This document shows positions 6,265-16,412 of a DNA stretch of 31,765 nucleotides, piece after piece. The position numbers and the translations under genes are program-made. The stretch covers positions 1 through 31,765 of IMG/VR virus record IMGVR_UViG_3300019889_000028; one strand, given 5' to 3'. This DNA is from a virus. Position 1 is the stretch's first letter. The number at the start of each line of letters is the position of its first letter. The notes under the pieces were generated by a model that saw nothing but the letters and a program-made list of their open reading frames with translations, did not search any database and was not told the DNA's origin.

Positions 6265-7703
6265 AGCGTCATGTGATCCACGGTTCTTAGCTCCGCTCTT
6301 TTGTAGCCATCACGGGGAAGGCGCTTCGCATCGGTTTTGGCCGCCCTGCCCGTCACCATCACGTCAAGCAATTGACCGACCAGCCCGAGCGCATCGGTTT
6401 GGTCATCGTGCTTGACGGCCGGGAACGAGAGCAGTTCGGCGAGGAAATCCGCGATATAGGGCGCGTTCTTTTTGTAGAAGAGACCATCGAGCGCCATGCG
6501 GCCCTGAATGGAGCGCGCCCGCACCGCCTTGTCGCCGCGCACCGGAAACCCGGTGCGATTGACGTACAGGCGGCGCTCGCGCATGCGCTTTTCGAGGAAA
6601 GGACCGACGCCGGATTTGATCTGTCCGTGTTCTTCCGCCCATTCGAGCGGGTGATATTTTTCCAACAGATCGCAGAACGCTTCGATCCACACATCCGAGG
6701 ATTTTTGGCCCCGCCAGACATCCAACAGGTACATATTATTGAGGTGATCGATACCGACCACGACATGCACGGTGTAGTCGCCGCCGTCTTTCGTCACCGC
6801 ATAATCGCTGCCGCCGTAAATCCGCAGATTGACCGGGCTTGGCAGGATATCGATTGGCTTCAACCAATCTTCCTTGAAAAAATCGCCCTCATCCGGGGCC
6901 GGGGCTTGCTGATAAAGCGCGCTCCACACGCGCGGCGGGGTGGTTTCCTGCACGTCCAGCAGTTGCGCGCCATAACCGTAATCGTCATCGCACCATAACG
7001 GCTCACCAATGGCGCGGCCGAGTTGATCGTCAGACTTGGCAAGCGCTGGCAGCGACAACACGGTCCACGGCTGCAAATTCAACGCACGCCCGGCCAAATC
7101 ATCTTCATGCCAGCGGGTTTGGATCAGCACTTGCCGGGCATGAGGAATAAGACGCGGCCGAAAGTCGTTCAGATACCAATCCCACTGCCGGTCACGGACC
7201 AGCGCGCTATCGGCGTCCTGACGCGACCGGATCGGGTCATCGATCAGGCCGAATAACGCTCTAAAACCGGCGATGCCGACGCCTGCGCCAGCCGCCAGAT
7301 ATTCGCCGCCTTGTTGCAGTCCCCAGCGGCCCGCCGCCTGACTGTCGGCCGCCAGAGAGACCTTGAGTTCTTCGGCATGCTCGGACACCAGATTGCGGAC
7401 CCTGCGGCCCCAGCGCTCGGCAAGCTCGACGGTGTGACTGGCCCCGAGGATCATCGCCTTGGGGTTTTGCGCGAACAGCCACGCCGGAAACAGAATGCTC
7501 GCATAGGTCGATTTGGCCGAGCCGGGCGGCATGAACACCGCGAGCCGGTCAATGTCGCCGCGCGCAAGCGCTTCAAGGTGTTCGATCAAAAGGCGATGAT
7601 GCCGGGCCGGGATAAAGCCGTTGGCAAGGCACCATTCGCCGAGACTTCCGCGCAGCCGTCGCCGCCGCAACACTTCGGCTGCGGCCTGCTCCGGGGTGAA
7701 CAT
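6261..7703 (-). CDS. Terminase large subunit (packaging ATPase/nuclease)
   Basis: 480 residues with both domains of a phage large terminase. ATPase: Walker A PPGSAKST at residues 59-66, Walker B-like LFGLIDDP at 150-157, and coupling segment QTRWHEDD near 195. RNase H-like nuclease: SDYAVTKDGGDY at 299-310 and HDDQTDAL around 432-439 provide the metal-binding aspartates. It cuts concatemeric phage DNA and pumps it through the portal encoded next. ATG at 7703; only a weak ribosome site is visible, so coupling to the preceding gene (stop 5 bases upstream) is likely. Confidence 0.93.
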   Translation of the reverse strand: MFTPEQAAAEVLRRRRLRGSLGEWCLANGFIPARHHRLLIEHLEALARGDIDRLAVFMPPGSAKSTYASILFPAWLFAQNPKAMILGASHTVELAERWGRRVRNLVSEHAEELKVSLAADSQAAGRWGLQQGGEYLAAGAGVGIAGFRALFGLIDDPIRSRQDADSALVRDRQWDWYLNDFRPRLIPHARQVLIQTRWHEDDLAGRALNLQPWTVLSLPALAKSDDQLGRAIGEPLWCDDDYGYGAQLLDVQETTPPRVWSALYQQAPAPDEGDFFKEDWLKPIDILPSPVNLRIYGGSDYAVTKDGGDYTVHVVVGIDHLNNMYLLDVWRGQKSSDVWIEAFCDLLEKYHPLEWAEEHGQIKSGVGPFLEKRMRERRLYVNRTGFPVRGDKAVRARSIQGRMALDGLFYKKNAPYIADFLAELLSFPAVKHDDQTDALGLVGQLLDVMVTGRAAKTDAKRLPRDGYKRAELRTVDHMTL

Positions 7704-11157: not shown

Positions 11158-11346
11158 ATGGCTTTCATCGTCACGATCATGAACAACGGAACCGAATGGC
11201 CTTTGCGCGGAACCGTTTGGGCCTACTCAATGGACCGCGCGCAAATCTTCGCAACCCGCGACGAAGCGCAAGCCGCGCTAACCAAGGCCAAGCCGTTCAT
11301 GAAAGCGGCAATGTTCAAAAAGGCGGTGATTAAAGAGGTCGAATAG
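11158..11346 (+). CDS. Small hypothetical protein (62 aa)
   Basis: Begins MAFIVTIMNNGTEWPLRGTV; a beta-rich first half and a Lys/Ala-rich helical end. ATG at 11158 is preceded by ACACAAGGGGAAC, the initiation motif shared by most rightward genes of this island. No family recognised. Confidence 0.6.
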   Translation: MAFIVTIMNNGTEWPLRGTVWAYSMDRAQIFATRDEAQAALTKAKPFMKAAMFKKAVIKEVE

Positions 11347-11352
11347 CCCTCG

Positions 11353-11399
11353 CTCAAATCGCGTCATGCCGGGCAAGCGCAAGCTTTACCCGGCTTGAG
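11353..11399 (+). ncRNA. Conserved intergenic hairpin element, copy A
   Basis: Lies between the stop at 11346 and the gene at 11448. Outer pairing CTCAA/TTGAG, then GCCGGG/CCCGGC, then AAGC-GCAA-GCTT, a stem capped by a GNRA-type GCAA tetraloop. A second copy (13825-13870) keeps the outer and middle stems and the loop and swaps an A-T for a C-G pair in the apical stem. The flanks (TA[G/A]CCCT before, TTAG after) are also alike. Class unknown to me. Confidence 0.55.
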
Positions 11400-11447
11400 G
11401 CATTAGGAGCGGTCGCGCATCGCGGTCGCGCACAAGGGGAACGCAAA

Positions 11448-11702
11448 GTGAAAACGGTCAAGCTCGAAACCATCAAGGCGCAAGCTAACGCGGTGTTTCG
11501 CGATAGCGTCGATGACTACGCTACCCAGCGTCGCGCGGTTCATTATTTCGTCGCTGATCTACTGATGAAAGCCGATGCTTACAAAGGCTTTCGCTATCTC
11601 GAAACCAATGAGCCGGGTAAATCAATCGGGCTGATCCGCAATGCGGACAACCCGGCAGGCCCGCACGTTTTCCCCGATGATAGCCGAATTGCGTTTCTGT
11701 AA
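11448..11702 (+). CDS. Small hypothetical protein (84 aa)
   Basis: GTG start at 11448 preceded by CACAAGGGGAACGCAAA. A helical first half (LETIKAQANAVFRDSVDDYA) and HYFVADLLMKADAYKGF. Soluble, unknown function. It follows the structured intergenic element and is coupled to a 32-residue gene downstream. Confidence 0.58.
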   Translation: MKTVKLETIKAQANAVFRDSVDDYATQRRAVHYFVADLLMKADAYKGFRYLETNEPGKSIGLIRNADNPAGPHVFPDDSRIAFL

Positions 11703-11800
11703 TGCGAAAGCTCATATTCCGCCTACGCTTTGGCGACGATTGGCAATGGCACTATAGACGCTGGCAACAGCGAAACCGCAGAAGGAAAACCCGCCGCTAA
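11702..11800 (+). CDS. Arg-rich micro-protein (32 aa)
   Basis: The ATG shares a base with the upstream stop (TAATG), so it would be translated by coupling. MRKLIFRLRFGDDWQWHYRR followed by a run of Gln/Arg/Lys. Its stop codon lies in the loop of the terminator hairpin. Strongly basic, so nucleic-acid binding is possible. Short; could be fortuitous. Confidence 0.42.
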   Translation: MRKLIFRLRFGDDWQWHYRRWQQRNRRRKTRR

Positions 11801-11812
11801 GGCGGGTTTTTT
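11786..11812 (+). terminator. Intrinsic terminator (cassette 1)
   Basis: AAAACCCGCC pairs with GGCGGGTTTT around a 5-base loop, then more T. The A-run on the other side makes it partly bidirectional. Confidence 0.85.
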
Positions 11813-11828
11813 CTTGCCTGCAAATAAA

Positions 11829-11843
11829 TCCAATTCCCTTGGG
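11829..11843. promoter_or_regulatory. Near-match operator site
   Basis: TCCAA-TTCCC-TTGGG, one mismatch to the 15-bp repeat, 33 bp upstream of the perfect site at 11862. Confidence 0.45.
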
Positions 11844-11852
11844 TTGGCTGCA

Positions 11853-11881
11853 TTGACATTATCCAATTTATTTGGATATGT
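11853..11881 (+). promoter_or_regulatory. Promoter with operator in spacer (cassette 2)
   Basis: TTGACA (11853-11858), 17-bp spacer, ATATGT (11876-11881). The operator TATCCAATTTATTTGGATA is a 19-bp inverted repeat centred in the spacer (core 11862-11876). Drives the gene at 11911. Confidence 0.75.
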
Positions 11882-11910
11882 GGAATTGCAAACAACGCAA
11901 GGGGATTTGA

Positions 11911-12204
11911 ATGTTCGATAGCAATGCAATGAACGAGCTAAAGCATATCGCCGCTGATCGGTATCAGCGCAACGGCGGAGGCGGCTCGCAAACGGTTCAT
12001 GCGACCGCGACCGCATATGACAAGGCGCGCGGCTTTGGCGAGATGTCGCCTTGGCGGCAAGCGGTCTATAAGGCGCGCATGCAATACAAGGTCGCTTGCG
12101 ACGGCGCGCGCGCCGATTTCTCTTTCGCTCCCGTCGCCTTTGATCTGGCGAAAGAAGAAAAACGAGAGGCTGCACAAAATGCACTGCGCTCAATCCCGTT
12201 CTAA
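11911..12204 (+). CDS. Hypothetical protein (97 aa)
   Basis: ATG at 11911 with CGCAAGGGGATTTGA upstream. Starts MFDSNAMNELKHIAADRYQR, glycine-rich turn, then long amphipathic helices. Soluble; no recognised domain. Overlaps the next gene by 26 bases. Confidence 0.6.
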   Translation: MFDSNAMNELKHIAADRYQRNGGGGSQTVHATATAYDKARGFGEMSPWRQAVYKARMQYKVACDGARADFSFAPVAFDLAKEEKREAAQNALRSIPF

Positions 12205-12349
12205 CCAAACCGAATTGCCCGATACGGCGCAACAGATCGGGCAAGCTCTACAGCGTCGCGCCAACGCGCCGCTACTGCCGACCAAACCGCAACAGCCAAT
12301 CGAGACCGGACTATTCGGCGAAAGTCACAAGCAAGGGGAAATGTTCTAG
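12179..12349 (+). CDS. Small Gln/Pro-rich protein (56 aa) ending QGEMF
   Basis: ATG at 12179 inside the end of the previous gene, with GAGAGG about 9 bases upstream. Gln-rich, probably disordered, ending SHKQGEMF. The last five residues fit the loose Q-x-x-hydrophobic-F pattern of beta sliding-clamp binding peptides; this is only a pattern match. Confidence 0.48.
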   Translation: MHCAQSRSNQTELPDTAQQIGQALQRRANAPLLPTKPQQPIETGLFGESHKQGEMF

Positions 12350-12373
12350 CCGTCCTAAAACTTTAGACCAACT

Positions 12374-12398
12374 AACCCGCCCATGTGGCGGGTTTTTT
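12374..12398 (+). terminator. Intrinsic terminator (cassette 2)
   Basis: AACCCGCC pairs with GGCGGGTT over CATGT, followed by TTTTTT in total. Ends the 11911-12349 cassette. Confidence 0.85.
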
Positions 12399-12416
12399 GT
12401 TGCCTGTTTTCCGAAT

Positions 12417-12431
12417 TCCAAGCGTTTTGGA
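12417..12431. promoter_or_regulatory. Perfect operator site
   Basis: TCCAA-GCGTT-TTGGA, a perfect copy of the repeat, just after the cassette 2 terminator. No clear promoter boxes flank it. Confidence 0.6.
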
Positions 12432-12467
12432 GGTATCAAAAGACCGCCAATAGGAGACTCGCCCATG

Positions 12468-12539
12468 CGTTATTTTTTCGAGTTGGTACGATTGTGACCG
12501 GGGAATTATCGCCCCTCAGTGACTCGCCTATTGTGTCAA
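12468..12539 (+). repeat. 72-bp imperfect direct repeat, copy 1
   Basis: Matches 12706-12777 without gaps at 60 of 72 positions. Identical blocks include GGTACGATTGTGACC, AATTATCGC and CTCAGTGACTCGCCTA; differences are confined to short clusters between blocks. Spacing of the copies is 238 bp. Confidence 0.75.
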
Positions 12540-12558
12540 CTAATTTAATTGGCTCATA

Positions 12559-12604
12559 TCCAAATTATTTTGATGCTATCGCTTGACTATCCAATGAAAT
12601 TGGA
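12559..12604. promoter_or_regulatory. Two operator sites
   Basis: A one-mismatch copy (TCCAA-ATTAT-TTTGA, 12559-12573) and a perfect copy (TCCAA-TGAAA-TTGGA, 12590-12604). TTGACT precedes the second at the usual distance, but no -10 box follows. Confidence 0.5.
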
Positions 12605-12658
12605 CAAGCCGGAATTCGGGTGATTTGCCCGATTTTTGAAATATTGATTCGTGGAACG

Positions 12659-12673
12659 TCCAAATTATTTGCA
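12659..12673. promoter_or_regulatory. Near-match operator site
   Basis: TCCAA-ATTAT-TTGCA, one mismatch. It lies between the two 72-bp repeats. Confidence 0.4.
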
Positions 12674-12705
12674 TATGTTGCGGCTCAATTAGAAGCTCGC
12701 TGGCT

Positions 12706-12777
12706 CGTTATTTTTTCATCCCGGTACGATTGTGACCTAGAAATTATCGCGTCTCAGTGACTCGCCTAGCGTGTCAA
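12706..12777 (+). repeat. 72-bp imperfect direct repeat, copy 2
   Basis: Second copy of the 12468-12539 element, 12 substitutions, no gaps. Neither copy encodes a conserved peptide: the variable cluster changes codons non-synonymously. Confidence 0.75.
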
Positions 12778-12785
12778 TCCCTTGA

Positions 12786-12800
12786 TCCAAAATAATTGGG
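12786..12800. promoter_or_regulatory. Near-match operator site
   Basis: TCCAA-AATAA-TTGGG, one mismatch, 8 bp after the second 72-bp repeat. Confidence 0.45.
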
Positions 12801-12852
12801 TTGCGTTTCCGGCGCGAACAACGCGGCCAAAAAACACCTGTAACATTTAGTT

Positions 12853-12867
12853 ACCAAACAATTTGGA
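12853..12867. promoter_or_regulatory. Near-match operator site
   Basis: ACCAA-ACAAT-TTGGA, one mismatch, 15 bp before the perfect operator of the ArdC promoter; the two could be bound cooperatively (30-bp centre spacing, about three helical turns). Confidence 0.45.
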
Positions 12868-12874
12868 TGCTTCA

Positions 12875-12903
12875 TTGCCGTATCCAAATTTATTGGATAT
12901 AAA
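12875..12903 (+). promoter_or_regulatory. Promoter with operator in spacer (ArdC cassette)
   Basis: TTGCCG (12875-12880), 17-bp spacer, TATAAA (12898-12903). The spacer holds TATCCAA-ATTTA-TTGGATA, a perfect operator (core 12883-12897). Drives the ArdC-like gene at 12937. Confidence 0.72.
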
Positions 12904-12936
12904 AAGCCATCGAAACCGCAGACAAGGGGAACAACG

Positions 12937-13818
12937 ATGGCGACCAATCTCTACAATGAAGTAACGGCGCGCATTCTGACCGAGTTGCAGAACGGCGCGG
13001 CACCTTGGGTTAAGCCGTGGTCGGCAACTCCGGGTAAGAACATTCCGCACAATGCCGCAACGGGTAACGCCTATTCCGGTTGCAATGTCATCCTGCTCTG
13101 GATGGCACAAGGCGAATTCACGTCGCCGCGCTGGCTCACGTTCAAGCAAGCGCTGGATTTGGGCGGGCATGTTCGCAAGGGCGAAAAATCCCGCGCCACC
13201 ATCTGCAAGGTGTTGCAGTTGCAGGGCAAGCCAAAGGACGGCGAGGCGGAAGGCGACCGCTTTACCACCATCAAGGCTTACGCCGTGTTCAATGTCGACC
13301 AATGCGACGGCTTGCCCGAAACCATCCTAAACCCGGAACCGGCCAAGGCGCGCCATGACGATGAGCGCGACGCGACGATTGACGAATTCATTGCAGCAAG
13401 CGGCGCGGATTTCCGCGATGACGTTGGCGGGGATCGGGCCTATTTTTCGCCCTCGCGCGATTTTATCGCGATGCCTGCTTTTGCCGCCTTCAAATCGGCG
13501 AACAACTACTATGCGACCGCGTTTCATGAGTTGGCGCATTGGACCGGCCACACGACGCGCCTTGACCGTAGTTTCGGTAAGCGTTTCGGCGACCGCGCCT
13601 ATGCGGCGGAAGAATTGGTTGCAGAGCTTACCAGCGCTTTCCTTTGCGCCGAATTCTCAATCGACGGCGAGTTGCGCCACGCTGGCTATATCCAAAACTG
13701 GATTGAGCTTTTGCGCGACGACGCCCGCGCCTTCTTTACCGCTGCCAGCAAGGCGCAAGCCGCCGCGCAATTCCTGCGAGACCGCGCGCTGGCCGAACCG
13801 ATGGCTATTGCCGCCTAA
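12937..13818 (+). CDS. ArdC-like antirestriction protein (ssDNA-binding plus zinc metallopeptidase)
   Basis: 293 residues. Residues 1-125 form the ArdC N-terminal/DUF1738 domain (LYNEVTARILTELQNG, PWVKPW, GKNIPHNAATGNAYSG, FKQALDLGGHVRKGEK), which binds single-stranded DNA in plasmid ArdC. Residues about 150-290 are the polyvalent-type metallopeptidase with HELAH (197-201) and the downstream EELVAE (225-230). Plasmid ArdC proteins protect incoming DNA from restriction. ATG at 12937 has ACAAGGGGAAC upstream. In a phage it would be expected to protect infecting DNA, but this is untested here. Confidence 0.88.
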   Translation: MATNLYNEVTARILTELQNGAAPWVKPWSATPGKNIPHNAATGNAYSGCNVILLWMAQGEFTSPRWLTFKQALDLGGHVRKGEKSRATICKVLQLQGKPKDGEAEGDRFTTIKAYAVFNVDQCDGLPETILNPEPAKARHDDERDATIDEFIAASGADFRDDVGGDRAYFSPSRDFIAMPAFAAFKSANNYYATAFHELAHWTGHTTRLDRSFGKRFGDRAYAAEELVAELTSAFLCAEFSIDGELRHAGYIQNWIELLRDDARAFFTAASKAQAAAQFLRDRALAEPMAIAA

Positions 13819-13824
13819 CCCTAC

Positions 13825-13870
13825 CTCAAATCGAGCTTATGCCGGGCCGCGCAAGCGTTCCCGGCTTGAG
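13825..13870 (+). ncRNA. Conserved intergenic hairpin element, copy B
   Basis: Between the ArdC stop and the GTG at 13916. CTCAA/TTGAG outer stem, GCCGGG/CCCGGC middle stem, CGC-GCAA-GCG tip. Same architecture and similar flanks as copy A at 11353, with a compensatory change in the tip stem. Confidence 0.55.
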
Positions 13871-13915
13871 CCGTTAGAGACGGCATTCCGCCGCGCTCAA
13901 ACAAGGGGCCTACCA

Positions 13916-14290
13916 GTGCAACAGAAGCTTATAACGAAGGAAATTGCCGCGCGGCTTGCCGCGAATGGCATCGCCACGCGCGCCGCGCAAAATGCCGGAC
14001 AACCCGAACCCGATCACATCCCGGCCCTGAAAGTGTTTAACCCCTACGGCGGCGCAACTTGGCTGTTTACCGAAAGCGACCCAGACAATGCTGACTGGCT
14101 TTTCGGCTTGTGCGATCTAGGCCAAGGCTTCCCCGAATTGGGAACGCAAAGCCGCGCGGAATTGGAAGCCTGCCGGATCAAGGTCGGCCCTTGCATGCTG
14201 CCACTTGAGCGCGACGCGCATTTCGTGACCGATAAACCGTTATCGGTTTTCACCGCCGAGGCCCGCGCCGCAAGCCGGATCGGGGCCTAG
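13916..14290 (+). CDS. DUF2958 family protein
   Basis: 124 residues from a GTG start preceded by ACAAGGGGCC. LKVFNPYGGATWLFTESDPD, FGLCDLGQGFPELG and LERDAHF are hallmarks of DUF2958, a family often encoded beside ArdC-like genes on plasmids, integrative elements and phages. Biochemical role unknown to me; the neighbourhood suggests anti-defence or DNA-entry function. Start codon choice: earlier in-frame sequence overlaps ArdC and is implausible. Confidence 0.85.
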   Translation: MQQKLITKEIAARLAANGIATRAAQNAGQPEPDHIPALKVFNPYGGATWLFTESDPDNADWLFGLCDLGQGFPELGTQSRAELEACRIKVGPCMLPLERDAHFVTDKPLSVFTAEARAASRIGA

Positions 14291-14964: not shown

Positions 14965-15621
14965 ATGATCGTTTACTATCGGGTTTCAACCCAAAAGCAG
15001 GGCCGTTCCGGTTTAGGTCTTGAGGCGCAACGCGCCACAGTGACACGCTTCGCGGTCGCGGAGGGCCTTGCTATAGCTGCCGAGTATATCGAGGTCGAAA
15101 CCGGCAAGGGATCGGACGCCCTCGCCAAACGCCCGCAACTCGCCGCTGCACTTGCCGCTGCCAAAAAACTTAAATGCGCCGTCATCGTTGCCAAGCTGGA
15201 TCGGCTTTCGCGCGACGTGGCGTTTATCGCCGGGTTGATGGCGCAGCGTGTGCCATTCATCGTCGCCGAGCTTGGCGCGGACGCCGATCCTTTCATGCTG
15301 CACATTTACGCCGCGCTGGCGGAAAAAGAACGCCGCATGATTTCAGAGCGCACAAAGCACGCCCTCGCCGCCGCCAAGGCGCGCGGTGTGACGCTGGGCA
15401 ATCCTGAACAGGCAAAGGCCAACGCGGACCATGCGGACGTTTTCGCGGAAAGCTTGCGCGCCATTGTGTGGCCCTACATCAATCTGTCGTCGCGCCGCCT
15501 TGCAGCGTTTCTCAACGCCCAAGGCGTCAAGACGCCAACCGGCAAGGCATGGCAGAGCGCGACCGCGCTGCGGCTGGTCGACCGCTTGAAGGGGGTTGGT
15601 CATGGCGCAGTGGCCGATTAA
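14965..15621 (+). CDS. Serine recombinase (resolvase family)
   Basis: 218 residues. Catalytic YYRVSTQ with Ser8 and Arg6, and KLDRLSRD (Arg80, Arg83), are the serine-recombinase active site; the [12 protein letters not shown] helix follows. The C-terminal part ([23 protein letters not shown]) is the short DNA-binding region seen in many alphaproteobacterial resolvases. Could resolve multimers, invert a segment, or move the cassette. No crossover site is obvious nearby. Under the same operator as the other island genes. Confidence 0.88.
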
Positions 15622-15888: not shown

Positions 15889-16412
15889 CTATTGGTTTCG
15901 CAGCCTTTCCCACAATTCCGAAAGCCGCCCGCCCGCGTCGCGCAGGATATCCAGCGCCGCCACCCGGCCCCGGTATGGCGATCTGAACCCCAGCGACCGC
16001 CCGACATCGGTTAAACCGATGTCATGGCATGCAACGCTATCTGCCACGAACGCCGGACGCCGCCCGATCTGTTCCCGCGCCAGATAGTAGGCGCTCCGAT
16101 GGTCGGCTTGTGCCTCAGAGCGCGCCAGCCCTGACATGTTGGATCGAACGCCAGCACCCGGTTGAGGTCGATTGAGTTCAAATGCCCCGCCAAGCCCGCC
16201 GCGAACCAGTGCAGCGCGTAAACCTTCAAGCCGGTGTATTCCTCGCCCGAAATGATTTGACGCGCCAGCGCCCGCCCTAGCGGGTTGTCGTTCATCTTGA
16301 AGCGCTGGCCGTCGCGGCGATTGCCGCCGATCTCAACATCACCCGGCGATTTTTTGGAGAATCCCGCGTGTCGCAAGCGTTCCGCAGTTGGTCCCGTGGC
16401 GTGTTGTGGCAT
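15889..16412 (-). pseudogene. Frameshifted hypothetical phage gene
   Basis: Two leftward frames together make one recognisable protein. The first, from ATG 16412 (MPQHATGPTAERLRHAG), runs through LARQIISGEEYTGLK, HWFAAGLAGHLNSIDLNRVLAFDP; the second continues from about 16137 with MSGLARSEAQADHRSAYYLA to a stop at 15889. Intact relatives, as I recall them, join an LNRVFASDP-type end to a GMAKTEAQAFHR-type start. The total is 524 bases, one short of an in-frame length, so one lost base explains it. Alternatively a sequencing error, or a split gene with the second ATG used. Function unknown. Confidence 0.68.

Follow-up and report, generated by a model that had tools for sequence, protein, structure and literature searches.

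A covarying RNA element between genes of uncultured phages and its possible role as intercistronic punctuation

The window analysed was a stretch of 31,765 nucleotides that makes up positions 1 to 31,765 of the IMG/VR virus record IMGVR_UViG_3300019889_000028. Two of its gene junctions carry the same arrangement of hairpins, linker and ribosome-binding site, composed of the following features.

11158-11346, plus strand: gene of 62 aa without a Pfam match, stop codon TAG at 11344-11346; the core model begins 7 nt later
11361-11401, plus strand: copy 1, stem P1, GC.UCA (11361-11366) with UGA.GC (11396-11401); folds and covarying P1 pairs
11368-11394, plus strand: copy 1, stem P2, GCCGGG (11368-11373) with CCCGGC (11389-11394); folds, covariance model and alignments
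11375-11386, plus strand: copy 1, stem P3, AAGC (11375-11378) with GCUU (11383-11386), GCAA cap at 11379-11382; same evidence as P2
11374 and 11387-11388, plus strand: copy 1, internal loop, C11374 opposite UA; same evidence as P2
11402-11406, plus strand: copy 1, linker AUUAG (NNUAG); family conservation
11409-11429, plus strand: copy 1, hairpin P4, GCGGTCGCG cat CGCGGTCGC; P4 hairpin scan
11434-11450, plus strand: copy 1, Shine-Dalgarno AAGGGG (11434-11439) and start codon; sequence
11448-11702, plus strand: gene of 84 aa downstream of copy 1, GTG start, no Pfam match
12937-13818, plus strand: ArdC gene, stop codon TAA at 13816-13818; the core model of copy 2 begins 8 nt later
13835-13871, plus strand: copy 2, P1, GCUUA (13835-13839) with UGAGC (13867-13871); folds, covariance model and covariation
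13841-13865, plus strand: copy 2, P2, 13841-13846 with 13860-13865; same evidence as P1
13848-13857, plus strand: copy 2, P3, CGC (13848-13850) with GCG (13855-13857), GCAA cap at 13851-13854; same evidence as P1
13847 and 13858-13859, plus strand: copy 2, internal loop, C13847 opposite UU; same evidence as P1
13873-13877, plus strand: copy 2, linker GUUAG (NNUAG); sequence and family conservation
13877-13898, plus strand: copy 2, bulged P4, GAG.CGGC (13877-13884) with GCCG..CUC (13890-13898); read from sequence
13903-13918, plus strand: copy 2, Shine-Dalgarno AAGGGG (13903-13908) and GTG start at 13916; sequence
13916-14290, plus strand: DUF2958 gene downstream of copy 2; Pfam

An earlier note had described both copies as a structured RNA that is not a simple terminator. 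The motifs it named (CTCAAATCG, GCCGGG/CCCGGC and the GCAA cap) were all present in the sequence, as were the exchange of AAGC/GCTT for CGC/GCG at the tip, the stop codon directly upstream and ACAAGGGG ahead of the GTG start. The neighbouring genes, ArdC followed by DUF2958 and the 62-aa protein followed by the 84-aa protein, were indeed unrelated according to Pfam and blastp. The proposed outer CTCAA/TTGAG stem is complementary, but it is not a conserved outer stem. The partner of the TTGAG(G)C strand, in folds as well as in relatives, is the nearer P1 strand (GC..UCA at 11361-11366 or GCUUA at 13835-13839), and the 5' CTCAA is not retained in other copies. Folded with their flanks, the two copies reached z = -3.5 and -4.0 against dinucleotide shuffles, and they scored 76.0 and 67.6 bits with a covariance model built including both. 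P4 of copy 2 was scored automatically as 'none' owing to its bulges; a similar hairpin is present in L105.

Both window elements are real members of a sizeable family. The search for further covarying copies, which the note had set as its own test, was made with a covariance model and yielded 86 copies, of which 80 are distinct, in some 50 phage contigs, with one to four copies per contig, and pairing covaried among them. In contig G020 four copies occupy successive gene junctions (L093). The carrier phages are environmental and uncultured, and their closest known relatives suggest hosts among the alphaproteobacteria. Two weaker window matches of model R2, at 7095 on the plus strand (20.0 bits) and 28218 on the minus strand (17.2 bits), lacked the fold and were not recovered by model R3. 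Rfam 15 gave no family at the gathering score in the window or over the elements in 16 relative loci, and nothing over the elements at a relaxed E-value. When consensus elements were compared with annotated phages by BLAST, only chance words matched. No element was found by the covariance model in five whole annotated phage records picked by ArdC match, among them phiCbK and two Brevundimonas phages. A pattern scan of bacterial genomes gave one genuine copy, the remaining matches being mostly chance. The same copy was the sole full-length, convincing match in covariance model scans of 385, 397 and 398 genomes. Other matches reached at most 33 bits; the four matches of the first scan that were examined proved to be generic hairpins or due to chance, and in the later scans the majority aligned to just part of the model. 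The structure is previously undescribed and represents a new RNA family with a putative function.

The main hairpin consists of an imperfect P1, a P2 of 6 bp and a P3 of 3 to 5 bp. Its asymmetric internal loop is invariant in form, with C (kept in 80/80 distinct copies) opposite YW, mostly UA; an invariant G-C pair is also present, and the surrounding stems vary in sequence. The cap is a GNRA loop or, rarely, of the UUCG type, so that the GCAA of both window copies is interchangeable with GAAA and UUCG in the family. A conserved NNUAG, predicted to be unpaired, follows on the 3' side (U61 in 80/80, A62 and G63 each in 74/78), then usually P4 and finally the Shine-Dalgarno sequence. P4 was found in 46 of 65 copies, compared with 16.6±3.1 in shuffled and 26.1±2.9 in swapped sequences; the linker is also kept in copies without P4. 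Across the 80 distinct copies 98.4% of cells were paired, both sides changed with pairing kept in 12 of the 13 modelled pairs, and two-sided, pair-keeping changes exceeded the controls (243 cells versus 76±12 in shuffles). RNAalifold gave the same fold on an alignment made from sequence without structure.

Nearly all copies lie between two co-directional genes, on the coding strand and in one fixed orientation. Automatic calling places the core 5 to 9 nt past the upstream stop in 65 of 71 copies, and inspection by eye in more, whereas the spacing to the next start ranges from 7 to 47 nt. As the former distance is nearly fixed and the latter variable, it is the upstream stop that sets the position of the element; the tight spacing could in part reflect genome compaction. 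Stop-codon readthrough was rejected because the stop-to-linker spacing is spread over all three frames. The 64 downstream proteins fall into 51 families, so the neighbours are mostly unrelated. The special tie to DUF2958 genes suggested by the note was not found, DUF2958 and GTG starts being peculiar to this window.

A hairpin acting at the DNA level, as an integron attC-like or REP-like site that moves gene cassettes between phages, is highly improbable and was largely excluded. It would fit the position after stops of unrelated small genes, the arrays, and the serine recombinase family found in about half of the contigs. However, P1 wobble pairs comprised 24 G-U versus 5 A-C in the mRNA sense, which together with the fixed orientation argues for an RNA rather than a DNA element, and copies within one phage differ by compensatory changes and not as recent duplicates would. 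An integron attC, which pairs an RYYYAAC left core with a GTTRRRY right core, was rejected: GTTRRRY was at the expected place in 0/65 copies, and YAAC near the stop in 17/65. REP/BIME elements of enterobacteria are GC-rich imperfect hairpins after stop codons that are credited with mRNA stabilisation; the present element differs by its one orientation, 1 to 4 copies per contig, compensatory variation and Shine-Dalgarno/P4 architecture. The extended start-associated sequences (ESAS) of cluster K mycobacteriophages are inverted repeats of unknown function that recur ahead of the start codons of unrelated phage genes (PMC3203893). Their arms follow a sequence consensus within one phage cluster, whereas those of the element covary, and the element takes its position from the upstream stop and occurs in phages whose structural genes are unrelated. 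Identity with ESAS was rejected, the start-associated GGGATAGGAGCCC and the consensus 17-bp arms being absent from the listed flanks.

No T-run follows any helix; among the copies listed the sequence is TTGAGGCATTAG-like after P1-P3 and GCAAGGGGA-like after P4, and an intrinsic terminator was rejected. A transcription attenuator or antitermination site without a U-tract would suit a GC-rich intercistronic hairpin soon after a stop codon, but it is very improbable: ordinary U-tract hairpins occur elsewhere in the region (11788, 12374), termination needs neither a conserved loop nor a linker, and up to four copies stand in one operon.

An effect on translation was considered in two forms. The two hairpins might fill the intergenic gap and keep the downstream ribosome site open, without cutting, so that this site is uncoupled from, or re-used after, the ribosome stopping upstream. 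This is a rather unlikely alternative. The element is directly upstream of the Shine-Dalgarno sequence, P4 usually ends a few nucleotides before it, the hairpin is near the terminating ribosome, and the Shine-Dalgarno sequence was a little more accessible than in shuffled leaders (0.46 versus 0.42, p = 0.01). The effect on accessibility is small, however, it is the stop distance and not the start distance that is nearly fixed, and the invariant C/YW loop and NNUAG are left unexplained. Translational coupling, in which the C-rich stretch after the stop (230 of 448 bases) pairs with the GGGG of the downstream Shine-Dalgarno sequence until a ribosome reaching the stop frees it, is improbable. The duplex energy was -4.93 versus -4.53±0.20 for shuffled gaps, and more than one gap-Shine-Dalgarno pair was expected in 20 of 65 folds, but gaps permuted between copies gave an equal energy (-4.92), so covariation between gap and Shine-Dalgarno sequence is absent, and the greater openness also speaks against it.

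The invariant G-C pair and C/YW loop resemble a protein recognition site; for simple capping of a 3' end they would be superfluous. With the near-invariant UAG amid variable stems, they could mark a candidate binding site whose partner, either an RNA-binding protein from the host or the phage or a small ligand, turns early phage genes on or off after infection. Several copies per phage would make a regulon, and the neighbours include antirestriction genes (ArdC, ArdA) and a recombinase. As a switch this is doubtful: no phage protein common to all carriers was found, no expression platform was seen, the Shine-Dalgarno sequence is not systematically sequestered, and the downstream genes are mostly unrelated. 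As the carriers also include at least two unrelated structural gene sets, a host factor is pointed to.

The explanation preferred here, with a probability of roughly 0.4, is that the element punctuates polycistronic phage mRNA between its cistrons, most likely by way of a host factor. P1-P3 would stand just beyond the footprint of the terminating ribosome and, as a 3'-terminal cap, would shield the upstream message from 3' exonucleases. An RNase E-like host endoribonuclease would cut within the single-stranded NNUAG linker, and the downstream message would then begin with P4 as a 5' stem-loop that protects its end and leaves the ribosome site open. Every gene would thereby obtain its own message, separately stabilised and translated. 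The run of four copies in successive junctions of G020 and the slightly greater openness of the Shine-Dalgarno sequence fit this reading; the copies lacking P4, and a stop distance that compaction might partly explain, weigh against it. RNase E cuts unpaired stretches with a U two bases after the cut (+2). The invariant U lies in a linker predicted to be unpaired, but the rule is only partly obeyed, U being at +2 if the cut falls between the first two bases. Precedent exists in the cip-cel operon, where intergenic stem-loops direct endonuclease cuts and stabilise both new ends (PMC10311766); that is a bacterial operon with individual stem-loops, whereas the element is one conserved RNA family across many genomes. 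T7-type RNase III sites between early genes, such as R1.1, are likewise intercistronic phage hairpins with an asymmetric internal loop. They are cleaved, whereas cutting of the element is only proposed; the loop of R1.1 is 4/5 nt (PMC6121014), while the element has a 1/2-nt loop, a short stem, the conserved NNUAG and a second hairpin. RNase III is disfavoured as the cutter because the Sinorhizobium meliloti enzyme reportedly requires longer double-stranded RNA than that of E. coli (PMC6121014).

Overall, the interpretation in the earlier note was partly supported: a structured RNA other than a simple terminator is strongly supported, the outer stem had been misassigned, and its suggested roles (processing site, protein site, translation control) are all still candidates. 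More tentatively than the punctuation reading itself, the family may constitute a new class of phage RNA that acts in cis and is positioned by the upstream stop, in which a host factor common to unrelated phages (a nuclease, a ribosome-associated or another RNA-binding protein) reads the invariant C/YW loop and UAG linker and cuts or insulates operon genes at their junctions. Because phages with unrelated structural genes share the RNA and the flanking genes are mostly unrelated, selection acts on the junction itself. The element makes a testable case for a widely shared means by which phages divide a polycistronic message into its genes, and for a host factor that reads the RNA. It also provides a marker for one group of uncultured phages, as well as a candidate part for balancing operons.

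The window, a 31,765-base virus record from IMG/VR, encodes a P22-like portal, a terminase-like protein, a tyrosine integrase and a serine recombinase. It holds two copies of the element:

About 11361-11401: window copy 1, between a 62-aa gene and an 84-aa gene
About 13835-13871: window copy 2, between the ArdC gene (12937-13818) and the DUF2958 gene (13916-14290)

With their flanks, these copies gave fold-stability z scores of -3.5 and -4.0 relative to dinucleotide shuffles, and neither matched a family in an Rfam search of the window. Two ordinary terminator hairpins with T-runs, alike in sequence (AACCCGCC..GGCGGGTTTTTT; window 11788-11820 and 12374-12406), serve beside the element and not in its place.

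A first pattern derived from the two copies (GCCGGGC, GCAA and CCCGGCTTGA, inner stem free) matched 17 IMG/VR stretches, most of which shared the layout of stop codon, hairpin, TTGAG-C-NNTAG, Shine-Dalgarno sequence (SD) and start. The family was enlarged with a covariance model (R2) and two looser patterns, and two further patterns yielded three extra contigs. The final alignment contained 86 copies, 80 of them distinct, with scores of 30 to 80 bits. A model rebuilt from these copies (R3) scored true copies at 43 bits or more and kept them apart from every other match across 887 kb of sequence from carrier contigs, where it found no copy beyond those of R2. The E-values of the model are rough, and copies were judged by bit score and by how far true matches stood apart from false ones. 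The diversity of the element is probably underestimated, since the contig-finding patterns held part of the sequence fixed.

The main hairpin, which follows the stop codon after a C-rich spacer, has three stems. P1 is imperfect, usually 5-8 bp long, and separated by a 1x1 mismatch from P2, a stem of 6 bp in which wobble pairs occupied 0 of 390 cells. An invariant G-C pair closes an asymmetric loop in which C (80/80) faces YW (first U or C, next A or U in most cases). P3 (3-5 bp) was capped by GCAA in 40 copies, by GAAA in 34, by a UUCG-type loop in 4 and otherwise in the remainder; this replacement of GNRA by UUCG-type caps argues against a sequence-specific reading of the cap.

The structured RNA that an earlier note had proposed was borne out by covariation among these 86 copies. 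Two-sided changes were present at 12 of the 13 modelled pairs, in 243 cells compared with 76 ± 12 in shuffles that preserve column make-up, not kinship; a second control and a MAFFT alignment agreed in direction. Sliding the partner by one column lowered pairing from 98% to about 50%. As the covariation alignment had been fitted to the model, an independent MAFFT-only alignment of 45 copies was made, on which RNAalifold returned an identical helix set, 12 of its 14 pairs being compensated. When every pair of columns was scanned, the top signals were overwhelmingly P2 and P3 pairs, P1 pairs ranking lower. The outer CTCAA/TTGAG stem of the earlier note is a real complementarity, but not a conserved stem: the partner of TTGAG is the nearer P1 strand. 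In the sense direction the P1 wobbles were G-U in 24 cases and A-C in 5, a comparison indicating that the conserved RNA fold lies on the coding strand.

On its 3' side P1 is followed by a linker, NNUAG (U 80/80, A 74/78, G 74/78). A second hairpin, P4, counted where a stem of 4 bp or more began at most 4 bases from the G of UAG, was present in 46 of 65 copies, compared with 16.6 ± 3.1 in shuffled sequences and 26.1 ± 2.9 with swapped 3' halves; some copies scored as lacking it, window copy 2 among them, carry a bulged P4. The 3' end of the element adjoins a purine-rich SD, usually AAGGGGA. In a test for sequestration of this SD by the post-stop C-run, the complementarity of the two was slightly higher than in shuffles, but it did not covary, and with shuffled leaders the SD was slightly less open.

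The core began 5-9 nt after the upstream stop, taken as the one ending the longest open frame, in 65 of 71 distinct copies (62 at 6-8 nt); by a rough estimate, a stop triplet falls in such a 5-position window by chance in about 1/5 of cases. On inspection, most remaining copies, including window copy 1, also fell within this range; L123:4423 stayed outside it, and the copy in locus L101 begins at a contig end. The next start, assigned by a simple score, was 7-47 nt away. Comparison of the copies shows an intercistronic element, anchored to the upstream stop, with a conserved unpaired loop and linker. P1 begins about 13-16 nt past the stop codon, which may correspond to the edge of the terminating ribosome's footprint.

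A role in processing or stabilisation is our tentative preference, with a probability of roughly 0.4; a translation module that works by no cutting is about half as probable, and a regulator bound by a protein or ligand comes close behind it. The P1-P3 hairpin would cap the upstream message, a host nuclease would cut within the NNUAG linker, and P4 would shield the downstream message next to an open ribosome site. RNase E follows a rule that places a U two bases 3' of the cut, and a cut two bases 5' of the invariant linker U would suit this rule. RNase III seems a less likely cutter, given the short stem and the reported need of the Sinorhizobium meliloti enzyme for longer dsRNA than that of E. 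coli requires (PMC6121014).

The nearest published analogue found was the ESAS of cluster K mycobacteriophages, repeated inverted repeats of unknown function before the starts of unrelated genes (PMC3203893). The T7 R1.1 site resembles the element in its intercistronic place and asymmetric loop, and stem-loops of the cip-cel operon guide cleavage and stabilise the two resulting products (PMC10311766). In none of the three do the loop, linker and stop anchoring correspond to those conserved here. No title or abstract retrieved in literature searches on structured phage RNAs described the element. An uncultured spring phage (MW202753.1) has junction hairpins at 1960-2028 and 2504-2588, after ArdC and another small gene. 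Their sequences are unlike, GTCCTAA and GGAGG come next, and the element's model did not match them; they are possibly a separate element of the same layout.

Other repeats were also present in the window. The palindrome TCCAAWTTWNTTGGA had 13 matches with at most one mismatch (expected 0.06), three places matching on both strands:

Window 11088, 11862, 12559, 12590, 12659, 12883, 14514, 14921, 21000 and 22539: sites of palindrome TCCAAWTTWNTTGGA

Several overlap promoter-like TTGACA..TTGGATAT sequences 5' of small operons and look like operators of one regulon. The palindrome also occurred in loci L105 (4) and L096 (1). A 92-nt stretch was present twice (12448-12539 and 12686-12777, 77% identical), and its core motif once in L105; it had no stable RNA fold and is thus probably a DNA element.

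The genes beside the element were diverse: 64 downstream proteins fell into 51 families and 62 upstream proteins into 42, with convincing Pfam matches limited to ArdC, ArdA, DUF2958 and resolvases. One contig (G020) had four copies at four consecutive junctions around ArdC. The carriers were metagenomic fragments for the most part, and no protein family common to all of them was found; the larger contigs divide into two or more groups whose structural genes are unrelated. A small serine recombinase of about 217 aa (window 14965-15621 and relatives), encoded on 22 of 46 carrier contigs, was shared more widely than any other of their proteins, and in L008 and L119 a resolvase gene lies immediately 3' of the element. 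A family of about 184 aa (window 16011-16412, minus strand; relatives e.g. L137:3122-3628), with no Pfam or PHROG match, was found on 20 of 46.

Only one convincing copy, in a Bradyrhizobiaceae MAG (L050), came from a pattern scan across 84,980 genomes of bacteria and archaea. Covariance model scans covering 385, 397 and 398 genomes yielded no further copy that was both full-length and convincing, and the element was absent from five annotated phage records. With L050 alone among the cellular genomes scanned and none in these five phage records, the element is essentially a trait of uncultured phages. Relatives of some carrier phage genes occur in plasmids or phages of Sphingopyxis, Roseomonas, Caulobacter and Brevundimonas, which suggests alphaproteobacterial hosts for the carrier phages.
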